From an uncultured Flavobacteriaceae bacterium (GTDB taxonomy: Bacteria; Bacteroidota; Bacteroidia; Flavobacteriales; Flavobacteriaceae): DNA of 64,000 nt. Both the position numbers and the translations under genes were made by a program. Below, in pieces: positions 26,725 through 58,607 of the stretch; positions within the stretch are counted from its first letter, which is position 1; each line of letters starts with the position of its first letter. Location of the stretch: NCBI GenBank assembly GCA_947495135.1, contig CANLXN010000003.1, positions 372,001 to 436,000 of the forward strand, written 5' to 3'. The notes below the pieces were generated by a model. That model was given only the letters and a program-made list of their open reading frames with translations, did no database searches and was not told the DNA's origin.

Positions 26725-28026
26725 TTAGATTTTTATTAATTTTTTACTCCAAGATCCTTCTGCATTAGAGACTTTTACTATGTAAATTCCATTTGGAATG
26801 TTCGATAAATCTACATTAAACGCACCATCTTTCATTATAGCATTAGATCGTATTTCCATCCCCATAGTATCGTATATCTTAAAATGATAATCTGAGTCGC
26901 TCGCTATGATTTCTATTTTCACGATCCCATTAGCAGGGTTTGGATATATTTTAAAAATATCCTCCGCTGTCTGATTTCCAGAACCATTGCTCATCCTCAC
27001 AAAATCTCCACAAACAATAGAAGTATCTATTTCTGCATGAAATCTAGATCCGCTTTTTCCAAAAAATCCATCAAGAAATAATATTTCGTCACCGGCTTTA
27101 CAATGTAATCTAGAGCCGCTGTTAATGTCAACAAATCTATCATTATCTTCTATAGACCACTCCATTTCATCTCCAACTTCAAATCCTACAGGAATTTCTC
27201 CATTATCTTCATGTTCTTGGTTCCATTGCCCCTTAAATACCTGCTGGGACATAATTATTCGATCGGCAACTTCAATTATTAAATCGTCATAATCATAAAA
27301 AACACTTCGACTAAAAGTTTTACTACATGCCGCGTCATGCCAATTCGTAAAGTCATCGCCTCTAATATCTCGTACTTGTATATCAATATCGTGTGGTGGA
27401 CATTCTTGACCTCCAAAATATGCTCTTCTCCTAAAAGCAGTTCTGATTAAGTTTTCTGGAAAAATATCCTCTCTTTTAATGAATGATCCTTTACCATCGG
27501 CTATAATACCTGTCCCATTTGAGCCTAAAATTAATTCGTAATCGTTAAATGCTTCCAAATCCACATCGGTAACATGTAAAAACTCTCTCCCAAGTTGATT
27601 AGATGTGTGGTTTATATGACCATACAAACCCACTTCCATTTTTTGTTTACCTACACTCCATCTCCAGCCTAGTCGAATGCTATGTCTATCGGTATATACA
27701 TTTCTATTAATAGTCATTAATTTGTTCCAATCTAGTTGATTGTCATTTCCAAGATCATATTCAGCATTTTCTAGAAAATTAGCTCGAAATCTAAGTGTCC
27801 TGGCCCAACTATCCCCGAAACTATTGTTATTCCCTTTTATTCTTAATGCAGTTACCGGTCCATCTCCATGTCCAATACTACTATTACATACCGTTGGGTC
27901 GTTAAGAAGAAAGTCAATGTTACTTAAATTTTCTAATTCTGGCTCAACATCAATGTTTTGTCCTGATACTATGTTTGTAATTAAAAACAGACACAGAAAA
28001 TATAATTTTATGTTAGATAATTTCAT
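26725..28026 (-). CDS. Secreted T9SS-cargo protein with coathanger-like segment
   Basis: I use the Met at 28026, which gives a clean signal peptide (MKLSNIKLYFLCLFLITNIVSGQ) and a 16-bp gap to the upstream gene. The 433-residue product has an N-terminal region without a family I recognise. Next comes a segment reading SRLHCKAGDEILFLDGFFG followed by GSRFHAEID, which resembles the coathanger-stack element of Bacteroidota surface proteins. A type A T9SS sorting domain starts at 'IYPNPANGIVKIEI'. It forms a two-gene unit with the fibre-like gene upstream. Surface location is well supported; function is unknown. Confidence 0.75.
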   Translation of the reverse strand: MKLSNIKLYFLCLFLITNIVSGQNIDVEPELENLSNIDFLLNDPTVCNSSIGHGDGPVTALRIKGNNNSFGDSWARTLRFRANFLENAEYDLGNDNQLDWNKLMTINRNVYTDRHSIRLGWRWSVGKQKMEVGLYGHINHTSNQLGREFLHVTDVDLEAFNDYELILGSNGTGIIADGKGSFIKREDIFPENLIRTAFRRRAYFGGQECPPHDIDIQVRDIRGDDFTNWHDAACSKTFSRSVFYDYDDLIIEVADRIIMSQQVFKGQWNQEHEDNGEIPVGFEVGDEMEWSIEDNDRFVDINSGSRLHCKAGDEILFLDGFFGKSGSRFHAEIDTSIVCGDFVRMSNGSGNQTAEDIFKIYPNPANGIVKIEIIASDSDYHFKIYDTMGMEIRSNAIMKDGAFNVDLSNIPNGIYIVKVSNAEGSWSKKLIKI

Positions 28027-28042
28027 CTTAAGATTATTAAAA

Positions 28043-28813
28043 TTATTTCCCGCTGTCGTCAAGTATCTTACTTACAATGGATTCCAGTTTTTTAATCCGT
28101 TTGTTTTGCGCTATGATGTACAACGCTAATTCCTCAATTTTCTCTTGTTGAATACGACTAATATCACCTAACTCAATACCTTGTTCTTCTACTTCTTTCG
28201 CAGAAGGTACATTTGGGAGATGTCCATTAGCCTTGATATATTCTTCCAATTCTTTTATTGAAATTAAATGATAGTTTTCATCAAAAACATAATCTGCCCA
28301 ACCAGTTCTCACTCTTATTTCACTCGCTAAAATTCCATGCTCTACAAATAGATCATAATGACTTATATCTGAACCACCTATTGTTAAAGGGATATTGGTT
28401 GGACCTCCTTTTCCGATCACTAATTTGCCATGAATTTCAACTTCGGCTTTAGCATTTCCTTGGTAGCCAGGCCATATCAAAAGCCTGTTTTTTGATGGAT
28501 CTGTGGTTGCTCCAAATGCCACATTATCGGTTATTAGATGTCTTCTACTACCGTCTGGATTATTAAAAGTTATTTGACTTTTCCATCCATCCCCACTATT
28601 TCTATCAAAATACAGGTCTAGGCCCTTTCCACCCATCTTTCCATTTACGTCAAAATTCAACCAAGAAAATTTGGCAACATTTCGATTAACGATTGCGGTA
28701 TCCCATGTATATATTTTGTCTTGTCCATTAAGCAGCCACTGGCCAAAAGTGATACTTGGGCATAGAAGAAAAGGAAATACCAGTAACTTAATAAGATTGT
28801 TAACATTAATCAT
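28043..28813 (-). CDS. Fibre-like secreted protein with C-terminal coiled coil
   Basis: The 256-residue protein has a signal peptide (about 1-25, ending TFGQ) and a beta-rich middle with glycines and repeated hydrophobic pairs. Its C-terminal module starts at TGWADYVFDE (residue 170), contains GHLPNVPSA (197-205) and ends in a coiled coil with EKIEELALYIIAQNKRIKKL. The same C-terminal module is found in the protein at 51091-52041. Such ends are common in Bacteroidota proteins resembling phage tail fibres and the S74 group, but I see no S74 Ser-Lys dyad here. It is the first gene of a pair with the T9SS protein downstream. A trimeric fibre is inferred. Confidence 0.65.
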   Translation of the reverse strand: MINVNNLIKLLVFPFLLCPSITFGQWLLNGQDKIYTWDTAIVNRNVAKFSWLNFDVNGKMGGKGLDLYFDRNSGDGWKSQITFNNPDGSRRHLITDNVAFGATTDPSKNRLLIWPGYQGNAKAEVEIHGKLVIGKGGPTNIPLTIGGSDISHYDLFVEHGILASEIRVRTGWADYVFDENYHLISIKELEEYIKANGHLPNVPSAKEVEEQGIELGDISRIQQEKIEELALYIIAQNKRIKKLESIVSKILDDSGK

Positions 28814-29512
28814 CGGTGAGTTATTTTTTTATTTTCCCTACTCTTTTAATGGCATTTCGGGGTCCTCCTTGAAAAATTAATTTCTCTAACAATACTATGG
28901 TTTCATTTTTTTTAAATTCTAACTAATTCATGAATTGAAGCTTTCAATTCATAAATGGAATGGGCATTTTAACTTTGAATTCCGCCATTGATTTTATCTC
29001 AAACAATTAATCGTCCCGAACCAAACCTTCACTTTCAGTTAGAAAAAATATAACAAAGATGTTCAGTTGAAGGTTTTCGACTTCTCAGATCACTCTTTTA
29101 CAGATATGAAGGAGTTTCCCGAAATGCTTGAAGATTTGAATCAATTTTTTAAACAATACTTAAATAAAGGACTTAAGTAAAGCCTAAGGTGTGGTCACAA
29201 CCTCATCTGCGAATACCAATTACCGAAGCTAAAGAAGGAGCTTGATTTTCGATGAGATCATAATTGATATTTGCAGACGAGATAAAACCAAGACTTAAAT
29301 AGTTACATAATACACTTCATTCTCCTCCAATAAGTAGTCCAAGCAAAATTACATTTCAGCACAAAATGAACGCCTCATTATTTGCCTAATAGGTTGATTC
29401 AAAAAAACATACATTGATGTGCTTCACTCTTCATCTAAATAAAATTTATTACATTGCGCCTACCTATTTATGATTTTTAATAAAATATTAACCCTTAATT
29501 TACCCCAAAGAC
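28814..29512. other. Long intergenic stretch with a gene remnant
   Basis: Apart from the coding remnant at 29043-29180 this AT-rich stretch shows no open frame with recognisable content. No operator or terminator stands out. Confidence 0.45.
29043..29180 (+). pseudogene. C-terminal remnant, possibly of an alpha/beta hydrolase
   Basis: An open stretch of 45 codons preceded by an in-frame TAG and closed by TAA encodes 'DVQLKVFDFSDHSFTDM' followed by 'KEFPEMLEDLNQFFKQYL' and a basic tail. The hydrophobic strand, the DH near a putative catalytic histidine and a closing amphipathic helix look like the C-terminus of an alpha/beta hydrolase. No start region or upstream homology is visible, so I regard it as a decayed end fragment. 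Confidence 0.4.
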
Positions 29513-30037
29513 ATGAAAAATTTTCTAATTTTTTCACTTACCCTTTTTGCATTTATTACAGTATCATGCAGCACAGATGACGGTGCATCTACTACAAATT
29601 CACAAGCACAGGAAGCCGAATTTCAAGCTACAATTGATGGAGACACCTACTCCAGTTATTCTTTTGAGATGAGAGTTTACGAAGCTAAAAAAGGCACAAA
29701 TGGCAATACCTTAAGCATAGATGTTGCCGATATCAATGGCGAAATGATTACCCTATTTTTAAACGGAACAGGCGGTTTTAGTAACAGCACTGTTAAGGAA
29801 ATGGGAGATATCGATTCGGAAAATTTCACTAACTACGTTTTAATAAGACAATCTGGAACTCAGATTTCCTATTTTTCTTCGACTGGTCGCGTTACCATTC
29901 TTAAAAATAGAGAGCATCCTACAGAAGCTGGACATCGATTAATCTCAGGTCATTTTGATATTACGGCGTCTTCTATTGATGGTACTAATACTACATCCAT
30001 GACTGGCTCTTTTACAGAGTTAGATTACGTAGAGTAG
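29513..30037 (+). CDS. Small lipoprotein, DUF6252-like
   Basis: The 174-residue protein has a lipoprotein signal peptide ending in TVSCS (Cys19) and a short acidic linker. A beta-rich domain follows, with FQATIDGDTY near residue 42 and a closing 'GHFDITASSIDG' to 'MTGSFTELDY' region. This pattern (N-terminal ATVDG-type strand and a C-terminal 'GxFxF/GxF' strand pair) resembles the Bacteroidota lipoprotein family DUF6252, whose function is unknown. It stands alone between intergenic regions and is followed by a terminator at 30147-30185. Confidence 0.6.
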   Translation: MKNFLIFSLTLFAFITVSCSTDDGASTTNSQAQEAEFQATIDGDTYSSYSFEMRVYEAKKGTNGNTLSIDVADINGEMITLFLNGTGGFSNSTVKEMGDIDSENFTNYVLIRQSGTQISYFSSTGRVTILKNREHPTEAGHRLISGHFDITASSIDGTNTTSMTGSFTELDYVE

Positions 30038-30430
30038 TCTTTTCAGAAATACCCCCTATCCATTTTAGGTGAAAATTGTATAAAACCTAAAATGGAACTA
30101 ATAAACAATTACAACACTATATTGACTTAGTAATAGGTACAGAAGTAAACACCCGATCTAGTTTAAGATCGGGTGTTCTGTTTTAAAAAACTTCTCGCCT
30201 TTTGCCTAGAGTATAATCCTTAATCCTTCCCTAAATTTTTCAGTTGATCTATTGCCTTTGTTACGAGAAGCCAGCGGCATGTTGCCAGTACTCTTTTTGA
30301 AGTTTTTTTGAGATACGGTAAAATGATAGGGTAACAAAACCAAGCGCATGTCTCTTACCTATATATCTTTTTAGGTGGCGGAATCCGAAAAGCCAATACA
30401 AATAGAGTAGGAAAAATTAATCGATACGAT
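30038..30430 (+). other. Intergenic stretch with a terminator
   Basis: It holds the terminator at 30147-30185 and, just before it, a degenerate copy of the repeat context (ATATTGACTTAG, then CAGAAGTAAA). I see no gene. Confidence 0.5.
30147..30185 (+). terminator. Terminator with repeat-family flanks but a different stem
   Basis: ACACCCGATCT pairs with AGATCGGGTGT. The flanks CAGAAGTAAA and TTCTGTTTT are those of the tRNA-end repeats, while the stem bases have changed on both sides so that pairing is kept. Confidence 0.75.
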
Positions 30431-33400
30431 ATGAAAAAATGCTTTTACTTCATTGTTTTTATGTTCATTAGTTTTAGTGGCTTTAGTCAAAATAACCTCG
30501 GAAACTACTGGCTAGACGTACAAAAACCCTCAACCATAAAACAGAACAACCCAGCGCCAATAAATGCGAGGAGTCTGAAACTTGACCACTCAGCATTAGA
30601 AAAACAGCTTAAGACCCTTAGGGATGCTCCAAGCGGTAAAAAAATTAACCTTGAAATTCCTCTTCCAAATTCAGGTTCAGAACGATTCGAAGTCGAATTC
30701 TTTCCTATTATGTCTCCAGCTTTATCAAAAAAATTTCCAGACATCCATTCTTACAGAGGTATGAGTATGGACAATCCTGACAGAACAATTGCTTTCGGAT
30801 TTACACCAAAGGGGTTCCACGCTCAAATTTTAGGGGAACGCACTATTATAATAGACCCAATTTCCAAAACCGAACAATCGGATTACTACCAAGCTTACTT
30901 CAAGGATGAAACGCCTTTTAATCAAAACCTCTTATGTGAATTTGAAAACAAAGCACCGTTTAAAGACATGATAGATCCTAATGGAAATACATCAAGAGCA
31001 CCACTTGGCGATTGTCAAATTCGTACTTTCAGATTAGCTGTTGCTTGCACTGGAGAGTATGCTCAGTATCATGGAGGAACTGTAAATAGCGCCATGGCCG
31101 CTATTAATGTAACTATGACAAGAGTAAACGGTATCTACAATCGTGAATTGGCAGTTCACATGATTTTGGTGGACGACAATGACAACATTATTTTCCTAAA
31201 CGGAAATTCAGACCCATATACCAATAATAATGGTTTCACTATGCTCACTGAAAATCAAACCACTATCGATAACGAAATAGGGAACGGTAATTACGATATA
31301 GGCCATGTTTTTAGCACTGGAGGTGGCGGGATTGCAACCCTCAACTCTCCATGCGTAAACGGGAGCAAGGCCAGGGGAGTAACGGGTCTAGCCGACCCAA
31401 TTGGCGACGTTTTTGACGTTGATTATGTAAGTCATGAAATGGGGCATCAATTTGGTGCAAACCACACTCAAAATAATAACTGTCAAAGAAATAACCCAAC
31501 TGCCATAGAACCAGGTAGCGCATCAACTATTATGGGATACGCCGGAATATGCGCGCCTAATGTCCAATTGAATAGTGACGATTACTTCCATACAATTAGC
31601 ATCGAGGAAATGTATAATAATATAATAAGTGGAAGTAGCACTTGCGGAGACGTCATTAATTCATCTAATTCTAACCCAACCGCAAACGCGGGCATAAACA
31701 GAACAATCCCTAGACAAACTCCATTTTTTTTAACTGGAGAGGCATCTGATGCGAGTCTTTTTAGTTGGGAACAAATAGATAATGAAGTAGGCGCCGCGAT
31801 GCCGCCGCTGGCTAACAATCCAGTTGGCCCAATGTTTAGATCTATTCAGCCGCTAACCACTCCAACTCGTTTCCTTCCCAATTTACCGTCAGTTTTAAAT
31901 AATACTACGGAAACATGGGAGGTATTACCAAGCACTGGTAGGACAATGGATTTCGCGTTTACAGTTAGAGATAATAGATTTGGATGGGGTTGTAGCGCGG
32001 TAGATAATATGAGAGTGACCACCGCGGCTCAGTCGGGGCCATTTACTGTAACGTCGCAAACTAGTAATGAAATGTGGGCCACAGGAACAACTCAAACAAT
32101 TACATGGAACGTAGCCAATAGCAATGCTGCACCAGTGAACTGTTCTAATGTAGATATACTTCTATCAACAGATGGCGGTTTTACATGGGATATCGTCTTG
32201 ATAAATGGAACGGCAAATGATGGAACTCAAGACATAGTGGTTCCAAACCAACTCACATCGAATGGCCGAATTATTGTAAGATGCTCGGACAACATTTTTT
32301 ACAACGTTTCATTAGAAACTATTTCAATAACTCCTCCTCCTTGTGATACCACAGATTCTTCAAACTTCGAAATGAATGTAATTTGTGAAAACGGAACCTG
32401 GAAAGTATCTACTCAAGCTTTGGACTTAGATCCTCAAAACCATTGGTGGGGGCTGTATCAAACCGATACACAAGGGGAAGTAAGTGATACTAATACAATT
32501 GCCGGTCCTATTGGTGGAATTCAAAACGGTGAAACGGCTAATTTTAACTGGTTAGATCAATCCAAAAGATACTATATAAAACACGGTATTTGGACTGAAG
32601 ATTGCTACACATGGAGAGAAACTAGAATACCTATTGAGCCTTTTTATGTAGAGCCTGCCGACTTTCATTTTGAAAATGAAAATAATGAAGCGCAAGATAT
32701 TTTCTGTGTTGGTGAAGACATTTGGGCAGATGGTAATGCCACTATTGGAGAAGATCGATACAATATCCATGCTTGGAGACTTGTAAATGGTCAAAAACAG
32801 TGGTTCGGTTCCATAGGTTGGTTTTTTGGAAATATGACAGAAGTAAATATTTCTGATGAGTTTGCAGACCTCGCCAACCCGCTATACTTCAATCCAGGAA
32901 AATATGTACTTACTATTGCCTTTTCTAATCCTAGCGAATGTGAAGTATGGACCCCTATCGAAAAGGCATTCGAAGTAGTGTGCTGTGAAGATGAGGCTTT
33001 CGATCCATCGTTTGTAGTAGATGTTTCAGAAGGAAATATTTATACAGTCAATGGTTTCGATCCTTATTCTAATCATGATGTTGAACATCAATGGTTCGTA
33101 TTCTCAAGCACCGATAATACTCTAAGCCAAGATGACACTTTTGTCGCCAGTGGTTCGGGCACCTCTTTCTCGCACACCGCTGCAGACTCAGATTTGTTCT
33201 ATATTTTTGTTCATAAAATAATTACCGAGTGTGGTGAAGTATGTTTTGTGGTTGCACAATATCAAAACCTTGTAACTACTATAGAAGAGAACAGGTCGAG
33301 AGCCCTATTCGATTGTAGTATCCTTGACGAATTCTGTATAGTAACCACCCCAACAGATTTAACATATATTGAGAACACGTTGTCTTGGGATCCTGTACCA

Positions 33401-33883
33401 GGAGCAGTGGGTTATTCTGTAGAGAATGCCAACTTCTGGCCAGCTGAAGGTTGTAAATGTGAGAACCCAGTTTCAATTCTCCCTTTTTCCACTATGGAAA
33501 CTAGTGCCGAAATCGACTTAAATAAGGGCTCTTGTGCTGTAGTTCAGGTGCGAGCTAGATGTGCAGATGGCACTATGTCTGAACCTTCAAGGTGGATATG
33601 CATTGGTGGAAAAGGTCGTCCTAAAACTTTCGAAAAGGCCACCATTTCGCCGAACCCTACAAGAGGACTAATGACGTTTGATGTAGTTACTTCTTATGAT
33701 ACTAAAGTGACTGTAGAAGTTTACTCCTTTCATGGAAATTTAATCAAATCGTTTGTGTCTGAAGTTACTTCAGAGCAAGGATATACTGTCTCTTGGGACG
33801 GAAGAGGTCTTGTAAGTGGAGTTTATTTTGTGAAATTCATAACAGATGAAGAAATAGTTAGTAAAAAAGTGATTATTTATTAA
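30431..33883 (+). CDS. Secreted reprolysin-like metalloprotease with T9SS sorting domain
   Basis: This 1150-residue protein has a signal peptide (about 1-20, ending GFSQ) and a prodomain-like region to about 190. A metzincin catalytic domain follows, with the full zinc motif HEMGHQFGANH at residues 335-345 and an SxIMGYAG Met-turn about 25 residues later. A long beta-rich middle follows, then a fibronectin-III-like module with LSWDPVPGAVGYSVE near residue 985. A type A T9SS sorting domain begins at 'ISPNPTRGLMTFDV'. It should be an extracellular zinc protease. The C-terminal module is shared with the next gene. Protein class is clear, substrate unknown. Confidence 0.9.
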   Translation: MKKCFYFIVFMFISFSGFSQNNLGNYWLDVQKPSTIKQNNPAPINARSLKLDHSALEKQLKTLRDAPSGKKINLEIPLPNSGSERFEVEFFPIMSPALSKKFPDIHSYRGMSMDNPDRTIAFGFTPKGFHAQILGERTIIIDPISKTEQSDYYQAYFKDETPFNQNLLCEFENKAPFKDMIDPNGNTSRAPLGDCQIRTFRLAVACTGEYAQYHGGTVNSAMAAINVTMTRVNGIYNRELAVHMILVDDNDNIIFLNGNSDPYTNNNGFTMLTENQTTIDNEIGNGNYDIGHVFSTGGGGIATLNSPCVNGSKARGVTGLADPIGDVFDVDYVSHEMGHQFGANHTQNNNCQRNNPTAIEPGSASTIMGYAGICAPNVQLNSDDYFHTISIEEMYNNIISGSSTCGDVINSSNSNPTANAGINRTIPRQTPFFLTGEASDASLFSWEQIDNEVGAAMPPLANNPVGPMFRSIQPLTTPTRFLPNLPSVLNNTTETWEVLPSTGRTMDFAFTVRDNRFGWGCSAVDNMRVTTAAQSGPFTVTSQTSNEMWATGTTQTITWNVANSNAAPVNCSNVDILLSTDGGFTWDIVLINGTANDGTQDIVVPNQLTSNGRIIVRCSDNIFYNVSLETISITPPPCDTTDSSNFEMNVICENGTWKVSTQALDLDPQNHWWGLYQTDTQGEVSDTNTIAGPIGGIQNGETANFNWLDQSKRYYIKHGIWTEDCYTWRETRIPIEPFYVEPADFHFENENNEAQDIFCVGEDIWADGNATIGEDRYNIHAWRLVNGQKQWFGSIGWFFGNMTEVNISDEFADLANPLYFNPGKYVLTIAFSNPSECEVWTPIEKAFEVVCCEDEAFDPSFVVDVSEGNIYTVNGFDPYSNHDVEHQWFVFSSTDNTLSQDDTFVASGSGTSFSHTAADSDLFYIFVHKIITECGEVCFVVAQYQNLVTTIEENRSRALFDCSILDEFCIVTTPTDLTYIENTLSWDPVPGAVGYSVENANFWPAEGCKCENPVSILPFSTMETSAEIDLNKGSCAVVQVRARCADGTMSEPSRWICIGGKGRPKTFEKATISPNPTRGLMTFDVVTSYDTKVTVEVYSFHGNLIKSFVSEVTSEQGYTVSWDGRGLVSGVYFVKFITDEEIVSKKVIIY

Positions 33884-33897
33884 TCCAATTAATTAAT

Positions 33898-33930
33898 AAG
33901 CTCGGCATAGAAATATGCCGAGCTTCTATT
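33898..33930 (+). terminator. Terminator after the metalloprotease gene
   Basis: AAGCTCGGCATA and TATGCCGAGCTT form a perfect 12-bp stem with loop GAAA, followed by CTATTTT. It lies 14 bp after the stop and 16 bp before the next ATG. Confidence 0.85.
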
Positions 33931-33946
33931 TTAATAACCACAGATT

Positions 33947-35946: not shown

Positions 35947-38900
35947 ATGAAAAAAATGAAATTAGGGCTTCTACTGATAGCTGTACTAGCCTTATTACCA
36001 AAAAATGTGATTGCACAAGATCTTTCACAACCTATTAACGAACAGCTTGCCATTGTCGCTGCAAAGAAAGGGCTTCTACCTCAAGATATGCAATGGGAAA
36101 TTACAAGCGAACATACCAGTAAAATTAGTGGTGTACAGCATATTTATTACAGACAGCTAGTAAATGGAATCTCGGTTTACGGGACAGAATCTAGTGTTCA
36201 TTTAACATCAAATGGCACTGTGCTTACCTCGAATAACAGCTTTATTAGTAAAGCTTCTGATAAGGCTAATGGGGCACAACCAGGTTTAACTGCCATACAA
36301 GCTGTTGAAGCGGCTGCAAGTCAATTTAATTATTCAATCACCGAAGCTCTTTCTGAAATAAGTTCACTTGGTGGGGATAGCAGAGAAGTTGTATTAAGTG
36401 GTGGTGGAATGTCTCGAAGTCCCATTCCTGTAGAATTGATGTATCAACTAAACGACAACAATGAACTTGTTTTAGTTTGGAATTTATCGATCGAAGAAAT
36501 TAACCAACAAGATTGGTGGAGTGCACGTGTTGATGCATCCACTGGAAAAATCGTAGATAAAAACAACTATATCGTGAGCTGCACAATTGATCACGATCAT
36601 AGCTCGGACCACAACAAGTTTGATTATAATAAAAACCTCTACGATATACCTAATTACACAGAGATTACAGCAGAAGCAACAGCAGGCTGCTCCGAGTGTT
36701 ATGAAGTTTTTGCTTTGCCAATTGAAAGCCCATACCACGGTGCAAGAACGATTGAAAATTCTTCAGCAAATCTTACAGCATCTCCATTTGGATGGCATGA
36801 TACAGACGGAGTAGCTGGAGCTGAATTTACAGTTACCCAAGGAAATAATGTGAATGCCTTTGATGACGGAATGGGTGGATACCAGCCAGACGGAGGATCT
36901 ACTCTTGACTTTACTGGATATTCTTTCGACCAAGTATGGAGCACCGCTAATCAATCGGACGACGCTTCTATCACCCAATTATTCTGGGCAAATAATATCA
37001 TTCATGATGTGTTTTACCAATATGGGTTTGATGAAGAAGCAGGAAACTTCCAAGAAAACAACTACGGAAATCCTGGTTTAGGAAACGATTCGGTTAATGC
37101 TGAAGGACAAAAAGGATTAGTCTGTAATGCCTTTATGGGTACACCTCCAGATGGTCAAAGCCCAACAATGGAAATGTATGTTTGTAATGATAAAGATGGG
37201 AATTTTGATAGCCTAGTTGTTTTCCATGAGTGGGGACACGGTATTTCAAATAGACTTACAGGTGGAGCTACCAACACTGGATGTTTGAGTAACACTGAAC
37301 AAATGGGAGAAGGCTGGAGCGACTGGTTCGGAATTCAAATGACCATTGAACCGGGTGATACTGGAGCAGATGCGAGAGGAGTAGGAAGTTACCTTTTAGG
37401 ACAAGGTATTGGAGGCGTTGGAGTACGTCAATATCACTACAGTACAGATTTAGCTATTAACCCTCACACCTATGGAGATGTTGGAAGTGTTTCTATTCCT
37501 CACGGAGTAGGTTCTATTTGGAGCGCTATTCTTTGGGAAGTAACCTGGGCATTGATTGACGAACATGGATTCGATGAAGATATTTATACGTTTACCGGAG
37601 ACATTAACCAAGATGCTGGAAACATACAGGCCTTTGCTTTAATTACAGAAGCAATGAAACTACAACCTTGTAGCCCAGGATTTATAGATGGTAGAGATGC
37701 TATATTTGCGGCAGACCAAGCTCTTTACGGAGGTGCCAACGAATGTCTTCTATGGGAAGCTTTTGCTAAAAGAGGATTAGGATTTAGTGCAGATCAAGGT
37801 TCTTCCAGCAGTGTTACCGATGGTACGGAAGCATTTGATTCGCCAGTTCCTGCTATTAATACCTTAGAAGAAGTTTGCGTTGGACAAGGAGTGCAAATAC
37901 TTGGAGGTGGAACACCTACGGGAGGAGTATACTCTGGCCCTGGTGTTACAGATGATGGAAATGGTACAAGCTATACTTTTGATCCAGCAGTTGCTGGAAT
38001 TGGTTCACACGTAATAGAATATGATGTTACTAGTGCCTGTGCTTCAGGCGCAGCAACAGATACCATTGAGGTAACTAGTGATGACCCAGAGTTATTATGT
38101 CAAGATTACACTTTAGAGTTAGATGCAAACGGAGAGGCCACTTTAAACGTTGGAGATGTTGTGACGAACTTAGAGCCAGGTGCTTTTCAAGTTGACCAAA
38201 CGGGTACATTCGCGCCAATAGATATTACTGCTTCAGGGACTGAAGTTACATTGGGCGATGACGAAGGTACGGCAGCAATACCACTAGGGTTTGATTTCAC
38301 TTATTATGGTACAACCTATTCAGAATTTTATATTGCTTCCAATGGCTATGTTTCATTTAGTGGAAATGGAATGAATGTTTATACTCCAACGGCAATACCA
38401 GAGTCGAGCGAACCAAATGACATGATCGCCATAGCTTGGGACGATTTAAGTCCAAATCAAGGAGGCGCCGTTAGATATGAAACAGTTGGAACTGCTCCAA
38501 ATCGTAAATTAGTTGTCGAATTCGACGAAGTGCCGTACTACAACAGCACTATCGTAGTAACCACTCAACTGCATTTGTTTGAAGAGTCGAATCGAATTGA
38601 GATACATAGTGCCTCGATTCCTTCGAACACACTTACCCAAGGTGTAGAGAACGCTAGTGGTACAGACGCTCTAGCCACTCCGGGAAGAAACAATTCAACA
38701 TGGAGTGCAACAAACGATTACGTAGCTTTCTATTACGCCGAAGGAAATCCTTCTACTAATTGTGGGTTAGAAACTTCCATTACGCTAAGTCAAGAACTAT
38801 TTGATTGTGACGATTTAGGTACGAACACTATAACGATAACACTAATGGATACAGACGGAAACATGTCTACATGTACGCCAACGGTTACTGTAACAGATCC

Positions 38901-51063: not shown

Positions 51064-51090
51064 GGTATGTCTAATTTCAAATACATTTTT

Positions 51091-52041
51091 ATGAAAACAA
51101 ATTTTATACTTTTAATTCTTAGCTTATTATGCGTTACCTACTCACATTCACAAACGAATATTTTTCCTAATGATGGGAATACGGGTATTGGAACATTTGA
51201 CCCATTAGGTAAGTTAGACATTGATTTAGGTGAAAATTTTCACACTAAAGAAGCTGGAGTAAGAATCACAATTCCATACCCTGTACTGCAAGGTGGTTCA
51301 GCAGACAACTCTAATGAGAGTATTTTCGAGATTAGAAAAGATATGATGGGAATTACTCCAACGGTTTATAGTTCACAATTTATTTTGAATCATTTAGGAA
51401 GAGTTGGAATTGGCGAGCAAACACCTAATAGTAAACTTCATGTTCACAATGGTAGAATTCAAGTAACTGGAAACAATACCTATGGCGGTCCAATGATGAT
51501 TTTTGGAGGAGATGCAAACGCTCCAAACGGACAATGGGGTATCGAATATACTTCGGGAGGTGTTTCTGGACTTAATTTTTGGAAACCATTTCAGAGTTCC
51601 AATGGCACAAACAACGATGGATTTGGAAATCATTTCATGTTTTTGGCCGATAACGGAAAAGTAAGTATTGGTCTCGACCCTAATTTCATAAACTCTTTTA
51701 ATAAAGTGACTTACAGTGGAGATTACCAATTGTACGTTGGCACCGGAATTTTAACCGAAAAAGTAAGAGTTGCAGTTAGGTCGGGTAATGATTGGGCCGA
51801 CTATGTTTTTAAGGATGATTACAATTTGCTAGCTCTTTCAGAAGTGGAAAAACACATTAAAGAGAAAGGACACTTACCGAATGTTCCAAGTGCAGAAGAC
51901 ATTGTACAATCTGGAATTAACGTTGCGGAAATGGATGCCAAATTATTGGAGAAAATAGAGGAACTAACACTGTATGTAATTGACCTGAAAAAAGAGAATG
52001 AAAAGATAAAAGCTTTGCTAAATGACAATGGAATCAACTAA
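51091..52041 (+). CDS. Fibre-like secreted protein with C-terminal coiled coil
   Basis: The ATG at 51091 gives a signal peptide (MKTNFILLILSLLCVTYSHSQ). The 316-residue protein has phage-fibre-like repeats ('GNTGIGTFDPLGKLDI', 'GRVGIGEQTPNSKLHVHNG'). A middle segment WGIEYTSGG, LNFWKPFQSSN is shared with the S74 protein at 55369. The C-terminal module has DWADYVF, GHLPNVPSA (260-268) and a coiled coil. The C-terminal module is the same as in the 28043-28813 protein. It is 12 bp before a T9SS protein gene, so the two are co-transcribed. A trimeric surface fibre is inferred. Confidence 0.7.
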   Translation: MKTNFILLILSLLCVTYSHSQTNIFPNDGNTGIGTFDPLGKLDIDLGENFHTKEAGVRITIPYPVLQGGSADNSNESIFEIRKDMMGITPTVYSSQFILNHLGRVGIGEQTPNSKLHVHNGRIQVTGNNTYGGPMMIFGGDANAPNGQWGIEYTSGGVSGLNFWKPFQSSNGTNNDGFGNHFMFLADNGKVSIGLDPNFINSFNKVTYSGDYQLYVGTGILTEKVRVAVRSGNDWADYVFKDDYNLLALSEVEKHIKEKGHLPNVPSAEDIVQSGINVAEMDAKLLEKIEELTLYVIDLKKENEKIKALLNDNGIN

Positions 52042-52053
52042 TAGTGGATCGAT

Positions 52054-55000
52054 ATGAAAACAATAAATAAAATACTGATCGTAATTTTTCTACTCCTATT
52101 TCAAGTTTCTTTTTGTCAAAACTCTTCAGATCGTGATACAGGTAATCCAAATGAAGCCTATCCTTATATTCTGGGAGAAAGAAACTTTGAAACTATAAAA
52201 AAAGAAGGTTTAGAATTTTACAAGAACAAGATTGAAATTTTTGGAATCGATAAAGTGGCAACAGAAGGAAGTCCCTATATAAATTTCACAAGATTTATTT
52301 CAGACTGGGAAATAAAACTAGCAAATCATGACTACAATTTAAAGCAATACTTTGCTTCCTTAGATAGCAAGTCCGATTACAAGGATATGCCGATAGAAGG
52401 TTGTGAATGGGAGGAGTTTGGTCCTTTAGTGAAATCTTCTGGAAGTCAATCCAATCCAAATTCAGGGAGTGAAACACGTATAAATGGAATTGGTCATACC
52501 GAGTTCATTCGAATAGACAAGAATGACCCTTCAAAGATGTTAGTAGGATCCGCATTTGGAGGTCTTTTTTACAGTCGTAATGCAGGCGATTTATGGACGT
52601 GCGTTAGTGATAACTGGGATACATCTGCAGTTGCTTGGGCTGAATTCTCTGAAACTAATCCAGGTACTATCGTGGCTGTTGCTACAAGAGGAGGTGATCT
52701 CAATGGGAAATCTCATTTTTTAGGCGTTGACGGAGGAATTTTAATTTCCAGAGATTATGGGCAAAGCTGGGATAAACTCATTACTACCTCGATATTGTCT
52801 GATTGGGATAAAGTAAATAAAGTAATATTCAATCCAGATAAACCGGAAGAGATCTTTATTGCGAAGTCTAATGGACTGTATAAGTACACTAACATCAATG
52901 ATCTCGACAACCCAAATAATCTAGAAGAGGTCTTTGTTCCCTCCTCTACAAATGGCTTTAGTTCAATAGAATGCCTTGATGTAGAAATTATAACATCAGA
53001 TGAACTATTTCTTGACGGAAACTTTTTTGCAACCAGTTTTCTAGTAACAGAAAATTTTGCCGGCGGTAACGTGACGAGTGTTAAGACATATGTAACCCAA
53101 AATGGCTGGCAAGCAAGTCAAGAAGTATTTAATTCCATCAATAAAGAGGCAGCCACATTCGAATATTCTCCATCCAATTTATTTCCAGGAGCAGATCCAT
53201 ACAAAGCAAAGATCCATTGCAATATAAAGACGGGTAGCTCAAAACAAGTCTGGTCTTTAAGGTTGTTCAATCTTTCAGAAGAAATGTTAAAAACTGAAAA
53301 TGAGGGATCGCAAAATTTTGGAAGTTCTTTTGGATTTGCTGTAAATCCCTTTGACGAGAAAAAAATTATTTATTCTTATAAACTAGGATTATCTGGAACA
53401 AATAATGGTTTTGCAAATAATTCGGGAAACCCTACAAACGGTGAACTGCACGATGATAAAGAACATTTTCTATGGCATCCAACAAATCCAGATGAAGTAT
53501 GGGTGGCTCACCATGGTGGTGTTTCTAAATCCATTAATAATGGTCTAGATTGGGAAAGTAAAGATCTAGGATTGGGTGTCGCCATGGTTCAAAAATTTGA
53601 CCATAGCGAATATGATTTGAACAAGATATTGCTCTCCTTAGATCATGACGGAACTACGCGATTAAATAGTTCATATAATCAATCTAATCTAACACATGAC
53701 TGGAATATGTTTTCCGGAATATCAGATGGAGTTGGTGCCACTATGATTGATAAGGATGAATATCAATTTTATTTTGCCAGTGGTCAATTTGGATCTACAA
53801 ATTATGTTGCAATAGACTATAATGCCGCGTCCCAAGGTTTGTCTTTTCCGTCTGCCTACGGCAATGCTGCGTACAATGGGTGGTATGAACCAGCTCAAAA
53901 TGGAACAGTAGTATATACCCATGGAATAGAGAACAGTGTAAACTTCGGAAATGTTTATAAAACAGAACTAACTCCAGGTGTCATTCCAACGACCAGAACC
54001 AGAATATCTGATTTCACACAATTCATACCCAATGGAAACGATTTAATATTAACGCAAATAGGCGCATCACAAAAAGATGATAATATTTTATTTGCCAATG
54101 GTTTAGAGATCGTTCCCATTGGAAATTCAATTAGTCTTAATCAAGTGCTCTTCTATTGTAATAAAGCAAATAACGTGGACGCGCAAGTTGCCATAAACAG
54201 TTGGACCGAGGTGCAAATGCCCTACGATAATGGGCAATCTGTTAATTACACGGCGTTCGGAAGCGTTAAAGAAAGTCACTACATAGATGGTAGGTATTAT
54301 TTAACAACAAGCGGCAACGCCAATCTGTATAGAGCTGTTATGCTAGATATAGATAACCAAAATAATATGACGTTTACCGACATTACAGGAGATTTACCCA
54401 ATTGTGGTGCTAAATACGCTCAGGACTACAATATCACTATAGAAAAAGGCACAAATGAAGGAATTTATGTCGCTCAGGATTGTGGCGTTTATTATTTACA
54501 TGGGAGTGATTTAAATTCTGGTAATTTCAACTGGACACTTATAGGAAGTGGTCTCCCTAATATTGAGAAAAGAGGTATAAAACCGTATTACGCATTAAAT
54601 AAATTGCGCGTAGGAACTTTTGGTAGAGGGCTTTGGGAAGGGTGCTTTGTTTGTCCTGAAGATGAAATATTCTACGAATCTGGTGTGTACAGCGACCCAT
54701 ATGTGTTCAAAGAAGCACGTCAAGAAATTCATTCAATAGCAACCGTTCAAGTAGAACAGAATGTGAAATATAGAGCTGGAGACTTTATTGATCTAAACCC
54801 TAGATTTCAAGCTAAACATGGAAGTATATTTGATGCCTTTATACATCCTTGCGAACCGAATAGATCGAATAGTTTCAAGTCTGAACGAGCGAATCCCTGG
54901 GAGCCTTTAAGCCAAACTTTGGAAGGTGAAAATAACATAATATTAAAACAAAGTTCTGAAGGTATTGCTCTGTACCCAAACCCAACATCCAGTATAATCA

Positions 55001-55188
55001 ACTTAGAAACAAGCTTTGATGCGGGTGCCTTTGAGCTATATGATATACATGGAAAAATAATGACACAAGACCTTTTGCAATCGACCACCACAATTATTGA
55101 TCTATCCAAATTTAGCACAGGTGTGTACTTTTTAACGATTCGAAGTGATAGTGGTGAAGTTCATTTTAGAAAGGTCATTAAAGAGTAA
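52054..55188 (+). CDS. Secreted BNR/sortilin-like propeller with T9SS sorting domain
   Basis: This 1044-residue protein has a signal peptide (about 1-23, ending SFCQ). A VPS10/BNR-like beta-propeller covers the first 850 residues or so, with blades such as 'GGLFYSRNAGDLWTCV' and 'GGILISRDYGQSWDKL'. Then a coathanger-like segment ('VKYRAGDFIDLNPRFQAKHG', then SIFDAFIHPC) and a type A T9SS sorting domain ('LYPNPTSSIINLET') follow. It is the partner of the fibre-like gene 12 bp upstream. It may bind a ligand or cleave a glycan, but I see no catalytic motif. Confidence 0.8.
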   Translation: MKTINKILIVIFLLLFQVSFCQNSSDRDTGNPNEAYPYILGERNFETIKKEGLEFYKNKIEIFGIDKVATEGSPYINFTRFISDWEIKLANHDYNLKQYFASLDSKSDYKDMPIEGCEWEEFGPLVKSSGSQSNPNSGSETRINGIGHTEFIRIDKNDPSKMLVGSAFGGLFYSRNAGDLWTCVSDNWDTSAVAWAEFSETNPGTIVAVATRGGDLNGKSHFLGVDGGILISRDYGQSWDKLITTSILSDWDKVNKVIFNPDKPEEIFIAKSNGLYKYTNINDLDNPNNLEEVFVPSSTNGFSSIECLDVEIITSDELFLDGNFFATSFLVTENFAGGNVTSVKTYVTQNGWQASQEVFNSINKEAATFEYSPSNLFPGADPYKAKIHCNIKTGSSKQVWSLRLFNLSEEMLKTENEGSQNFGSSFGFAVNPFDEKKIIYSYKLGLSGTNNGFANNSGNPTNGELHDDKEHFLWHPTNPDEVWVAHHGGVSKSINNGLDWESKDLGLGVAMVQKFDHSEYDLNKILLSLDHDGTTRLNSSYNQSNLTHDWNMFSGISDGVGATMIDKDEYQFYFASGQFGSTNYVAIDYNAASQGLSFPSAYGNAAYNGWYEPAQNGTVVYTHGIENSVNFGNVYKTELTPGVIPTTRTRISDFTQFIPNGNDLILTQIGASQKDDNILFANGLEIVPIGNSISLNQVLFYCNKANNVDAQVAINSWTEVQMPYDNGQSVNYTAFGSVKESHYIDGRYYLTTSGNANLYRAVMLDIDNQNNMTFTDITGDLPNCGAKYAQDYNITIEKGTNEGIYVAQDCGVYYLHGSDLNSGNFNWTLIGSGLPNIEKRGIKPYYALNKLRVGTFGRGLWEGCFVCPEDEIFYESGVYSDPYVFKEARQEIHSIATVQVEQNVKYRAGDFIDLNPRFQAKHGSIFDAFIHPCEPNRSNSFKSERANPWEPLSQTLEGENNIILKQSSEGIALYPNPTSSIINLETSFDAGAFELYDIHGKIMTQDLLQSTTTIIDLSKFSTGVYFLTIRSDSGEVHFRKVIKE

Positions 55189-55368
55189 TGTTGATATAAG
55201 TTACTCATACATTAATCCATACCAGATAAATACATTCTTGAGAATCCCGAGAGTCTAAAATCAATTCACACTCAAATTTATCCGCAAAAAAGGTGTGGAT
55301 TTACCATCGCCCAAGAAAGCGTAATATGCTTACCTTCAACATACTATTAACCATTTAATCATATAATT

Positions 55369-56136
55369 ATGAAAAAAATTATCATTTTATCAGTTTGCAT
55401 TCTATTCAGTTTTTCAATGGATGCACAAGGCGTTTTTCGAATCAACGGATCCAATAACGCAGTTCAACTTGGTTTTGATGACTATCGCTTCTTAACATTT
55501 GGAGATGGGTTCACATCACCAAATAATGGAGCCTGGTCTATCGAAAGGTGGAACGGAGGATTAAATTTCTGGAAACCATGGCCTTCATCTAACTTCGGGA
55601 ATTACAAGATGTTCATTAAGGACAATGGAAATGTGGGTATTAATATGAATCCCTATTCGTGGTCCATCTTGAAATTGCAGGTTCGGGGGTATGTAGTATC
55701 CAATGGCTACTTTACTTGGAGTGACGAAAATTTAAAAGAGAACGTTTCAGAAATTGAACAAGGCATTGAACATTTAATGATGCTAAAACCGGTCTCCTAT
55801 AATTACAACAAGAACAAAATAGGAGATGGTTCACCAACCGATGAAGAGGATGAAATTAAATTAGCCACCATGGAAGGAGACGACCAGGGAGGTGGAGAAG
55901 ACACCCAAAGACATTTTGGTTTCCTTGCAGGAGAAGTTGCGGAGATTTTTCCAAACATTGTCTCTCCAGGCGATTCAAATGAAAGCCAATACAACGCAGT
56001 TAATTATGTCGAATTAATTCCTGTTCTAGTGCGAGGTATGCAAGAGCAGCAGCGAGTGTTAAAGAAACAAGAGCAGGAAATAGCGGCTCAAAAACTTATG
56101 ATTCAAGAACTTTCTTCCATAGTGAAAAAGAATTAG
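55369..56136 (+). CDS. Fibre-like protein with S74 intramolecular chaperone domain
   Basis: The 255-residue protein has a signal peptide (about 1-19, ending MDAQ). Its N-terminal half contains WSIERWNGG and LNFWKPWPSSN, shared with the 51091-52041 protein. The C-terminal half is a peptidase S74 chaperone domain beginning WSDENLKENV. The Ser118/Lys123 auto-cleavage pair is present and a coiled coil ('GMQEQQRVLKKQEQEIAAQK') ends the chain. In phage fibres this domain trimerises the fibre and then cuts itself off. It lies 47 bp before the second M36 protease gene and is probably in operon with it. Confidence 0.82.
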   Translation: MKKIIILSVCILFSFSMDAQGVFRINGSNNAVQLGFDDYRFLTFGDGFTSPNNGAWSIERWNGGLNFWKPWPSSNFGNYKMFIKDNGNVGINMNPYSWSILKLQVRGYVVSNGYFTWSDENLKENVSEIEQGIEHLMMLKPVSYNYNKNKIGDGSPTDEEDEIKLATMEGDDQGGGEDTQRHFGFLAGEVAEIFPNIVSPGDSNESQYNAVNYVELIPVLVRGMQEQQRVLKKQEQEIAAQKLMIQELSSIVKKN

Positions 56137-56183
56137 TGGTTAGATGAACTCTAAACAGAATATTAACTACTAATTTTTTTACT

Positions 56184-58607
56184 ATGAAAAGAATCATAAA
56201 ATACTCAATAATTATATGTTGCTTTTTTCTTGTGAATAATTCATTTTCTCAAACAACAAAGCAACTGGTTAAAGCCTATCTTCATCAAAGTGCAGATAAG
56301 CTTAACCTAACCGAAGATGACCTAAAAGAATGGAAAATATACCAATCTTATGAAGGTGATAAAAGCAAAATTACTCATGTTTATGGAGTACAATTGTTTA
56401 AAGGATTAGAAATCTGTAATACCGATTTCAATCTTCATATTGTTAAAGGTAATGAGGTTCTAAAGTTTCAGAATAACTTCATTTCTAATTTAATTTCTAA
56501 GACCAGTAATACTCCTGAAACACCAAAACTATCGAGTGTTGAAGCAGTTAATACCCTTGCAAAACTTCTCAACCTTAATATTACTGAGGAAATATCTGTA
56601 ATAGATACACCTCTTGGGGTAGAACAAAAACAGTTGTTAAGTACCGGAGGAATATCGCAAGAGGGAATTCCTGCTAAACTCATGTATTTTTTAGATAGAG
56701 ATGATCAGCTAAAATTAGCGTGGGATATTTCAATCCATGAGCTGGATGGCCAGAACTGGTGGAGCGTAAAATTAGATGCTACCTCTGGTTCCATTCTTGA
56801 AAAAAAGAACTGGGTTGCAGAATGTAAATTTCACGACCATGGAGCTGTTGCAAATTTACCCATGCCAGAAGAAAATTACCCCTCATTTGAAGAAGAGGCA
56901 CTAGAATCACCTTCCAGTGCCATGATGGGAACATACAATGTGTACGCAATGCCAACTGAAAGTCCTAATCATGGTGGTCGAACGTTGCAAGTAAATCCAG
57001 ACAATTTCTTGGCCTCCCCTTATGGGTGGCATGACTTTACGTATACCCAAGGAAATAATGTAGATGCATTCGAAGCGGGAGACAACTCTGGGTTTAGACC
57101 AAATGGCGGCGGAAGTTATAATTTCAACTTTCCAGTCTCATTTCCATGGTCTACAGGAAATCAATCTGAACCTGCCGCAATCACCAACTTGTTTTATTGG
57201 AACAATGTAATTCACGATGTGCTTTACCAATATGGTTTTACTGAAGCTAGCGGAAATTTTCAAGAAGACAACTACGGCCGTGGAGGCGGGAGTGCGCTAG
57301 CTGGAGATTATGTGAATGCCAGAGGGCAAGTAGGATTGTTATGCAACGCATTCTTCGGTACACCTCCAGATGGAAGTAATCCTACCATGTACATGTATGT
57401 AGGTAATTGCGGTGGCGTAAACAGAGATGGATGTTACGACAACCCTGTGATTGCCCATGAATACGGACACGGGATCTCCAATCGTTTGGTTGGTGGACCT
57501 AGTAATGTAGGTTGCCTGTCGAATAACGAGCAAATGGGCGAAGGTTGGAGCGACTGGTATGGGCTCATGCTAACCATGGAATCTACTCACAGTGGGACCG
57601 ATGCAAGGGGAATTGGATCTTGGTTATTTGGACAACCAGCAAACGGACCAGGAATTAGAGCTTTTCCATATAGCACAGATATGACCGTTGACCCAAGAAC
57701 CTATAATAGTATAATGGGTACGGGAGGTCCACACCCCTTAGGCTCCGTATGGGCGGCAATGCTCTGGGAAGTGTCTTGGGAACTAATAAGTATTCATGGG
57801 TACGACTCCGATTTCTATAACGGTACAGGAGGGAATAATATCGCCTTGCATTTAGTGACTGAGGGACTAAAACTTACTGCCTGCAGTCCTGGTTTTGTAG
57901 ATGGTAGAGATGCCATTTTATTAGCCGATCAAATGATTTACGGTGGCGCCAATCAATGCGCCATTTGGAGAGCATTTGCCAAAAGAGGTCTTGGAGTTAG
58001 TGCCAGTCAAGGTTCTTCCGCCAATAGAAATGATGGAGTGGAATCGTATGATGTACCTATGTCTTGTTGCCCTACCAACCTCAACATCACAACAGATGTA
58101 CCTTCGTTTACCGTAGATCATCAAGAGGCTGGAAACACCATTACAGCTTCCAATACAGTTCTTTCCAATGCGCAAGCAATTTATCACGCAGGAGGAACTG
58201 TTATCTTGGAAGAAGATTTTGCTGTAAATGACAACAGTGATTTCGCTGCCTATATTGAAGGCTGTACCGGAAGTTTTGTACTTGCCGCTGTTAATCAGGA
58301 AAGAGAGAAAATTGATCTGAGTTACTTGGGAGAAGAAGAGATCATTAAAAATGCTCCTCAATTAGCAGATGGCGTGATTCTGTCTCCTAATCCGGCCGAT
58401 CAATATTTCGATATTAGTATTTCAGAAGGAAAACTGAAAAGAATTGAAATTTTCGATTTAAATGCTCGAAAGCTTCAATCTTATGAGCCTGAAAACACTG
58501 AAAGCGTCTTTAGGGTAAATACGAGTATATTTAAATCTGGTGTTTATTTTGTGAATATTCTTGATAGTAACAATAACGTCTATGTCAAGCGTATCATAAT
58601 TAATTAG
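56184..58607 (+). CDS. Secreted M36 metalloprotease with coathanger-like segment and T9SS domain
   Basis: The 807-residue protein has a signal peptide (about 1-23, ending SFSQ), an FTP/PepSY propeptide and an M36 domain with HEYGH at residues 425-429 and EQMGEGWSDW. After this comes a coathanger-like segment ('NAQAIYHAGGTVILEEDFAV', then SDFAAYIEGC). The T9SS sorting domain starts at ILSPNPADQYFDIS. It is shorter than the paralogue at 35947-39183, which has PKD-like modules instead of the coathanger-like segment. It follows an S74 fibre gene. Confidence 0.9.
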   Translation: MKRIIKYSIIICCFFLVNNSFSQTTKQLVKAYLHQSADKLNLTEDDLKEWKIYQSYEGDKSKITHVYGVQLFKGLEICNTDFNLHIVKGNEVLKFQNNFISNLISKTSNTPETPKLSSVEAVNTLAKLLNLNITEEISVIDTPLGVEQKQLLSTGGISQEGIPAKLMYFLDRDDQLKLAWDISIHELDGQNWWSVKLDATSGSILEKKNWVAECKFHDHGAVANLPMPEENYPSFEEEALESPSSAMMGTYNVYAMPTESPNHGGRTLQVNPDNFLASPYGWHDFTYTQGNNVDAFEAGDNSGFRPNGGGSYNFNFPVSFPWSTGNQSEPAAITNLFYWNNVIHDVLYQYGFTEASGNFQEDNYGRGGGSALAGDYVNARGQVGLLCNAFFGTPPDGSNPTMYMYVGNCGGVNRDGCYDNPVIAHEYGHGISNRLVGGPSNVGCLSNNEQMGEGWSDWYGLMLTMESTHSGTDARGIGSWLFGQPANGPGIRAFPYSTDMTVDPRTYNSIMGTGGPHPLGSVWAAMLWEVSWELISIHGYDSDFYNGTGGNNIALHLVTEGLKLTACSPGFVDGRDAILLADQMIYGGANQCAIWRAFAKRGLGVSASQGSSANRNDGVESYDVPMSCCPTNLNITTDVPSFTVDHQEAGNTITASNTVLSNAQAIYHAGGTVILEEDFAVNDNSDFAAYIEGCTGSFVLAAVNQEREKIDLSYLGEEEIIKNAPQLADGVILSPNPADQYFDISISEGKLKRIEIFDLNARKLQSYEPENTESVFRVNTSIFKSGVYFVNILDSNNNVYVKRIIIN

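Follow-up and report, generated by a model that had tools for sequence, protein, structure and literature searches.

In the genome of an uncultured Flavobacteriaceae bacterium, genes for fibre-like proteins stand directly ahead of genes for substrates of the type IX secretion system (T9SS) that carry the segment GCX_COOH (hereafter GCX), and the same order recurs in many relatives of Flavobacterium, which suggests GCX as the partner of the fibre. The pairing is directional, tight, specific for GCX, and widespread, and we regard a functional partnership between the fibre and its GCX cargo as nearly certain. From these data we further infer, at about even odds, that the fibre docks on GCX and that the T9SS-sorted partner carries or holds it at the cell surface.

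The window analyzed here is a stretch of 64,000 nucleotides (contig CANLXN010000003.1 of assembly GCA_947495135.1, positions 372,001 to 436,000). An earlier note on this window had proposed three units of two genes each, and all six reading frames were confirmed, with 16, 12, and 47 bases between fibre and cargo gene in units 1, 2, and 3, respectively. In unit 1, located on the minus strand, the fibre gene (28043-28813, 256 aa) encodes a putative signal peptide recognized by eye and an HLP-type C-terminal module (28067-28363), while the Pfam profile search returned no family above cut-off. Its cargo gene (26725-28026, 433 aa) combines a putative signal peptide, again by eye, and a region without named domain with GCX (27025-27126; a partial match covering profile positions 13-46 of 49) and a T9SS type A sorting domain, or CTD (26734-26949, PF18962). 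Unit 2, on the plus strand, consists of a fibre gene (51091-52041, 316 aa) with repeats that appear shaft-like by eye, an LNFWKP stretch, and an HLP-type C-terminal module (51721-52032), followed by a cargo gene (52054-55188, 1044 aa) encoding a head, GCX (54712-54855), and a type A sorting domain (54970-55179, PF18962); the head matched glycosylhydrolase family NF045728 below cut-off (33.1 versus 175 bits). The fibre gene of unit 3 (55369-56136, 255 aa), also on the plus strand, has an S74 intramolecular chaperone/protease domain near its end (55720-55962) and then a coiled-coil-like tail, and its cargo gene (56184-58607, 807 aa) encodes an M36 metallopeptidase, GCX (58122-58268), and a type A sorting domain (58386-58601, PF18962). 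The N-termini of all three cargos are hydrophobic by eye, indicating putative signal peptides, and matches to PF18962 and TIGR04183, both above cut-off, establish the type A sorting domain in each. Congruently, the modelled end of the unit 3 cargo resembles solved T9SS CTDs (best match 8gl8, Foldseek E 3.9e-6).

The segment common to the three cargos corresponds to NCBIfam NF045639, GCX_COOH (“3-coathanger stack”), a domain without assigned role for which the library output holds the name only and neither a function nor the fibre pairing. It scored above the curated cut-off of 26 bits in every cargo, with 29.8, 47.4, and 56.7 bits on protein level and 33.3, 50.8, and 61.8 bits in a six-frame scan for units 1 to 3. 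The claim that the segment is missing from the other T9SS proteins of the window was upheld: the GCX_COOH profile search detected none in the proteins at 30431 and 35947, and the six-frame scan of the whole host genome (E up to 0.01) returned five GCX segments in all, of which three belong to the window units and none lies at 4418, 6338, 33947, or 40478. The M36 protease at 56184 possesses both GCX and a fibre partner, whereas its paralogue at 35947 lacks GCX, and none of the genes beside it in the window encodes a fibre. In the structure model, GCX of unit 3 forms a separate, confidently folded unit, a stack built from three strand repeats. A Foldseek search with the model of GCX plus CTD yielded no recognizable match for GCX, the placeable significant matches belonging to the CTD half or to Ig-like folds. 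NCBIfam’s own model recovered GCX in 32 of 35 cargo ends (the three window cargos and 32 of the 44 fibre-side partners described below) previously grouped by an analysis-specific model. Among CC-licensed PMC papers, none was found on GCX_COOH or on coathanger in combination with T9SS or type IX secretion, and the titles and abstract openings of the papers listed on related subjects contained nothing on fibre-T9SS gene pairs.

The fibres differ in their C-terminal ends. The fibre at 55369 carries the S74 end claimed for one of the three (Peptidase_S74, PF13884; 46.9 bits, cut-off 22), including the catalytic motif SDxxxK described for S74 (PMC10769870) in the form SDENLK; those at 28043 and 51091 gave no PF13884 match in the Pfam search and have the HLP-type end in its place. 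Both shared stretches pointed out earlier are present as well, i.e., the WADYVF..HLPNVPSA..coiled-coil module in the fibres at 28043 and 51091 and the W.IE..LNFWKP..SSN stretch in those at 51091 and 55369. The structure model of the HLP-type end (pLDDT 85) is predicted to be helical and gave no significant PDB match by Foldseek that would identify it as a diverged S74 domain; its best, non-significant matches were mosaic adhesive trimer (MAT) fibres of Bdellovibrio (Foldseek E 2.5; profile E 0.018, in the shaft part). According to the consulted part of PMC10769870, MAT fibres comprise a signal peptide, a conserved domain of ~130 aa following it, a trimeric beta-helix, and an S74 or other end. 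Like them, the window fibres and their relatives have both S74 and non-S74 ends; in contrast, the predicted helical HLP-type end differs from the beta-sandwich of the MAT fibre Bd2133, and that part of the paper describes no T9SS partner or GCX for MAT fibres. Five apparent proteins combining fibre and CTD were rejected, as their matches were weak (E 0.002-0.07) and lay away from the C-terminus.

Within the host genome, a fibre gene is found directly upstream of all five GCX genes, with zero genes in between in each pair, and one of the five cargos consists of signal peptide, GCX, and sorting domain with nothing else. PF18962 (T9SS type A) has at least 149 matches in this genome, 150 of 163 candidates having been scored. 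Inspection of the neighbours of all fibre-module matches on both sides placed just one of the 144 other listed PF18962 matches beside an HLP- or S74-module gene (C10:140026, fibre downstream). An adjacency beyond chance is borne out by this comparison (5/5 versus 1/144 of the other listed PF18962 genes, Fisher p 1e-8).

The same arrangement was found in other genomes. From 94 further GCX-positive genomes, 60 loci were selected as the best GCX match per genome, 58 of them by order of E-value (skipping G156, whose match lies at the contig start) together with those of the same-family genomes G084 and G021. By called genes, an HLP fibre was located upstream in 50 of 58 loci, 27 of the 50 immediately adjacent, with two loci (L122 and L156) having no ORF in this count. 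Since gene calls missed some fibres under antisense frames, e.g., at L219, a six-frame recount was run, in which 53 of the 60 loci (one locus per genome) showed an HLP-type fibre encoded upstream and in the orientation of the GCX gene. The same six-frame approach found an HLP fibre upstream of none of 40 non-GCX T9SS genes, which originate from 12 of the GCX-locus genomes (out of 20 genomes searched) and were hand-picked, non-randomly, from the best-scoring listed PF18962 rows. For the called genes, 50/58 versus 0/40 corresponds to a Fisher p of 8e-20 with these hand-picked controls. These results support the pairing proposed in the earlier note: the segment is, according to the six-frame counts, not equally common in T9SS proteins without a fibre neighbour, and rather than being unrelated in most genomes, the neighbour is of the same kind in most sampled genomes of the class. 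Considered from the fibre side, among the best-scoring 80 of 514 confirmed fibre loci, GCX followed at position +1 in 36 and within +3 in 44, compared with 1 of 72 at position -1; for the 36 without GCX within +3, nine leave the contig and others stop at an opposite-strand frame. These fibre-side rates may be biased upward because the three query fibres all have GCX partners. The adjacent pairs show median gaps of 10 and 19 bases. On genome level, disregarding relatedness, the HLP module co-occurs in 90 of 95 GCX genomes versus 53 of 201 others.

GCX is combined with many different heads and with two kinds of T9SS sorting domain that are unrelated to each other. Among the 58 GCX cargos, the heads include Sortilin, subtilase, reprolysin, trypsin, C10, M23, and GH16, to which the window adds M36. 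One count gave a type A CTD in 43 and a type B CTD (CHU_C) in 7 of the 58; in another, GCX was followed by a type A CTD in 46 of the 58, at a distance of 9-77 residues in 41 of the 46. At the lower end of size, several fibre-adjoining partners are reduced to a signal peptide (by eye), GCX, and a type A CTD (L012 with 177 aa, L038 with 182, L114 with 174, and L063 with 179), and another one, L076 with 187 aa, carries the type B CTD (CHU_C) instead.

The best explanation, to which as a whole we give slightly better than an even chance, is an operon-like pair of partners with the fibre docked on GCX for T9SS-borne display. The first gene of each unit would encode a Sec-exported fibre with a shaft-like body and a C-terminal folding module (HLP type or S74) but no sorting domain. 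The product of the second gene would be a T9SS substrate in which the 50-residue GCX, predicted as a small strand stack that sits on a flexible linker immediately ahead of the sorting domain, may serve as the docking site. The fibre trimer would assemble in the periplasm and then bind GCX, and the T9SS-sorted partner would carry or hold it at the cell surface, where a binding fibre may be displayed with an enzyme head, or alone in the minimal versions. Physical docking is made more plausible by the minimal partners of GCX and sorting domain and less so by a negative mirror-tree and by genome G291, where the examined GCX genes stand alone.

In the mirror-tree analysis of 75 pairs, fibre module and GCX showed a correlation of r = -0.09 (p 0.91; MAFFT repeat -0.09, p 0.90), at a low power given the only ~50 residues of GCX; what the fibre module did co-vary with, though weakly, was the CTD (r 0.16-0.19, p 0.009-0.003). 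In genome G291, an HLP or S74 gene was present in the stretch for 0 of 17 GCX genes (eleven stretches examined), and the analysis-specific model found a type A CTD in none of the 17; HLP and S74 genes exist elsewhere in this genome, and for a further GCX gene (L106) an S74 fibre lies on the far side of an antisense gene. Furthermore, the minimal GCX-CTD protein L138 (211 aa) has no fibre in the examined stretch, no T9SS CTD was found in the fibre partners L123 and L128, and a Rosetta-stone search among the called genes around fibre-side and GCX-side loci gave no fused fibre-GCX protein. As some units have an HLP and others an S74 fibre end, no single docking surface was identified. The absent co-variation, the GCX genes without fibre in G291, and the diversity of the enzyme heads would all fit mere co-regulation, with an adhesin and an enzyme sharing a surface target and GCX acting separately as a spacer or stabilizer close to the sorting domain, out of contact with the fibre. 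We nevertheless consider this unlikely, as the link tracks GCX and neither head nor sorting domain (compare the 40 controls), headless partners exist, and the GCX-less M36 paralogue stands without a fibre.

One to three other genes separate fibre and GCX gene in 23 of the 50 GCX-side clusters, several of them encoding, as judged by eye only, a product whose signal peptide is followed by a lipobox-like cysteine, or one with the look of a small barrel. Such a lipoprotein- or barrel-like product could be the true contact, anchoring the fibre or opening its exit, with GCX binding to this third protein. Barrel shuttles of gene neighbours are in fact known to serve T9SS type B substrates, the PorP/SprF shuttle being encoded downstream and recognizing the CTD (PMC12618676, in the part consulted), but no gene lies between in 27 of 50 clusters and in all five host-genome pairs, and we rate a third protein as distinctly improbable. 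The PorP/SprF pairs resemble the window units in that a secreted cargo has a dedicated partner gene adjoining; unlike them, the window partner is an upstream fibre and the marker is GCX, seen with CTD types A and B, and in the window itself all CTDs are of type A and the partners fibre-like, one with S74. CTD-bearing T9SS substrates are also enriched near TANFOR toxin genes, for which an exit through T9SS has been speculated (PMC7073777); these are different proteins, and the consulted part of that paper describes no link to a fibre or GCX.

It is still less probable, and in our view quite improbable, that GCX itself is a maturation or sorting element with the fibre as its chaperone-like helper. 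A position at or near the extreme C-terminus, with no type A CTD found, in 13 of the 17 G291 genes as well as in L113 and L128 would suit such a role, but GCX precedes the type A CTD in most of the 58 cargos, and a CTD alone exports reporter proteins through T9SS, as described in the consulted parts of PMC10994853 and PMC12618676. The idea of prophage tail-fibre remnants lying beside T9SS genes by accident was dropped as next to negligible: the S74 end of 55369 does match PHROG tail-fibre families, and phrog_9942 is matched by 7 of 81 HLP-type ends. However, a search of 50,697 phage records with the 87-aa HLP module of 51091 gave no match at E 1e-5, the surroundings of the units have no phage-like look by eye, and the directional GCX pairing in many genomes counters it as a general account.

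Returning to the docked fibre, a wider reading, which we put forward tentatively and at somewhat less than an even chance, is that GCX may be a dedicated dock exporting or fixing a trimeric fibre devoid of a T9SS signal. It would belong to a phylum-wide modular display in which head, sorting type, and fibre are freely swapped, with sister designs in the YDxxGN+CTD adaptor beside RHS/SpvB-like giants and the SYSIGQ+CTD adaptor beside S74 fibres. With the pairing described here, GCX_COOH, so far a named domain of no assigned role, gains a strong and testable partner, and fibre-like proteins of the Bacteroidota, some of them matching phage tail-fibre families, gain a plausible role at the cell surface. 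If docking is true, it would provide a route to the surface for proteins without a T9SS signal, and the fibre together with the 50-residue GCX would represent a natural tag-and-anchor pair, usable under many enzyme heads.

The three two-gene units of the window lie where the earlier note had placed all six genes, each with the fibre gene first: 28043-28813 followed by 26725-28026 (minus strand), 51091-52041 followed by 52054-55188, and 55369-56136 followed by 56184-58607. The segment it had recognized in the three cargos, one of which carries an M36 head, corresponds to GCX_COOH (NF045639, "3-coathanger stack"; hereafter GCX), each match exceeding the cut-off, and its reported restriction was confirmed in that the NF045639 profile detected it in neither the T9SS protein at 30431 nor 35947, the M36 paralogue. 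Also as described, the unit 3 fibre (55369) ends C-terminally in Peptidase_S74, while the fibres of units 1 and 2 share one C-terminal module, here labeled HLP after HLPNVPSA. A model of the C-terminal end of 56184 depicts GCX as three long strands, spaced approximately 20 residues from one another and interleaved with shorter ones (pLDDT 91-96 for residues 11-60, <50 for the linker to the sorting domain, CTD); the modeled HLP-type fibre end is built of helices, the last comprising 35 residues.

A scan of the whole genome (GCA_947495135.1) listed five GCX segments as well as at least 149 matches to the type A CTD (PF18962; 150 of 163 candidates scored), six of them below the curated cut-off. 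Both GCX genes beyond the window are likewise paired with fibre genes: a 287-aa HLP fibre precedes a 681-aa GCX protein, sialidase-like by eye, at 42 kb of contig C3, and a 238-aa HLP fibre precedes a 177-aa cargo at 22 kb of contig C1, the latter consisting of a signal peptide (by eye), GCX, and sorting domain only. Consequently, every one of the five GCX genes is immediately preceded by a fibre gene, of the HLP type in four cases and S74 in one. These account for five of the 13 fibre-module matches (6 HLP, 7 S74); two S74 fibres, mutual neighbors on contig C10, adjoin a short T9SS protein of another kind, and the remaining six have no directly adjoining type A CTD gene. At the C10 locus (L021:7406-10503), the 164-aa T9SS protein precedes the tandem S74 fibres and carries a GGFASYSIGQ..GVQQP stretch; it may represent a third short-adaptor type, here in reversed gene order.

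Among the matches listed, NF045639 was found in at least 95 of 296 genomes of the class, 60 of which were sampled with one GCX match each. In gene calls, an HLP fibre preceded the GCX gene within its co-directional cluster at 50 of 58 loci (27 at position -1, 15 at -2, 5 at -3, 3 at -4). A gene-call-free six-frame search detected a same-strand upstream HLP fibre within the stretch at 53 of 60 GCX loci but neither HLP nor S74 at any of 40 T9SS genes lacking GCX (stretches to ~9 kb upstream), drawn from 12 of the same genomes; the upstream fibre follows GCX, in line with the earlier note's proposal. No such HLP fibre was found in the stretches of L107, L113 (contig end), L124, L135, L138, and L156, and L106 has an S74 fibre in its place. 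Nine further stretches outside genome G291 all contained an HLP fibre except L223, near a contig start.

Counting was also performed from the fibre side. Scanning 84,980 species genomes for the HLP module gave at least 514 confirmed stretches; the 80 top-scoring ones were retained, regardless of neighbor. Within these 80, GCX was present on the same strand at +1 in 36 loci and within +3 in 44 (contig ends in nine loci), although the query, three fibres each with a GCX partner, may favor such loci. A type A CTD occupied +1 on the same strand in 43 of the 80, another HLP fibre in nine; position -1 showed GCX in 1 and a CTD in 6 of 72. Since the in-house GCX model started from the five segments of this genome and was refined iteratively with these 80 loci, it was cross-checked with the NCBIfam model, which recognized GCX in 32 of 35 cargo ends (3 from the window, 32 of the 44 fibre-side partners). 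An alternative layout recurs in five of these best 80 (L029, L041, L062, L091, L103): the HLP fibre is followed by a 138-164 aa protein (signal peptide by eye, one YDxxGN stretch, type A CTD) and a protein of ~2,150-2,290 aa, with SpvB and FG-GAP matches in the three scanned (L029, L041, L062) and RHS in two. Genes of 177-188 aa, Skp/OmpH-like periplasmic chaperones by eye, occur at fibre +1 in L048 and L082 and upstream of the GCX gene within the fibre's cluster in L165. T9SS proteins at +1 in L064, L067, and L077 carry a stretch like FRARNNIEILSGDYYP..GYIDLKI..C, resembling GCX by eye and unscored by the in-house model.

On genome level, the HLP module (81-sequence fibre alignment) is carried by 143 of 296 genomes, namely 90 of 95 with GCX versus 53 of 201 others (odds ratio 50, p 2e-31, kinship ignored). 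G291, having 22 GCX matches, is the counter-case: eleven stretches with 17 GCX genes contain neither HLP nor S74 genes, showing that GCX can exist without a fibre, and none of the 17 has a type A CTD by the in-house model. Elsewhere this genome holds 44 PF18962, 8 S74, and 4 HLP matches. Thirteen of the 17 genes place GCX at the protein's C-terminus or close to it; in these stretches (L206-L216) GCX is expanded, mostly as final domain of secreted-looking proteins, including a tandem run of four genes (L211).

The partners are variable in their remaining domains. Heads among 58 GCX proteins include Sortilin-Vps10, subtilase, reprolysin, trypsin-like, C10, M23, and GH16. The in-house model found a type A CTD after GCX in 46 of 58, separated by 9-77 residues in 41 and by more in five; Pfam assigned type A to 43 and type B (CHU_C) to 7. 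No CTD was found in L123 and L128, both with fibre. Headless minimal partners adjoin the fibre with a type A CTD in L012, L038, L063, and L114 and with type B in L076; L138 encodes a minimal GCX protein with no fibre in its stretch. RHS proteins occur in L135, L143, L162, and L165 (DUF6443 in three); L143, L162, and L165 have an HLP fibre in the cluster. GCX is located inside or ahead of the RHS protein. None of the four showed a T9SS CTD, but in three the frame reaches the stretch end or was unscanned beyond it.

Fibre and GCX genes are paired with the fibre gene first and tightly spaced (median gaps of 10 and 19 bases in adjacent pairs), and this pairing is specific to GCX rather than to T9SS cargo as such. 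The strongest pointers to docking are the headless partners and the use of two unrelated sorting domains, since across these only GCX stays the same. We infer that the fibre docks on GCX and that the GCX-bearing partner would carry it to, or anchor it at, the cell surface. Mirror-tree comparison of fibre module and GCX did not support this, with r = -0.09 over 75 pairs (p 0.91; a repeat yielded 0.90); for fibre module and CTD, r was 0.16-0.19 (p 0.009-0.003, 75 pairs). A live rival is mediation of the contact by a third protein, since genes intervene between fibre and GCX gene in 23 of the 50 clusters, several being lipoprotein-like or barrel-like by eye.

The components are known families, and the gene pairing was not found in the CC-licensed PMC papers searched. 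The closest ideas concern Bdellovibrio and its MAT fibres (PMC10769870), type B substrates paired with SprF (PMC12618676), and a suggested exit of TANFOR proteins through the T9SS (PMC7073777). In a bolder and still tentative reading, to which we give somewhat less than even chances, GCX would be a dedicated fibre-docking site on T9SS substrates, part of a modular, phylum-wide display system with sister designs.
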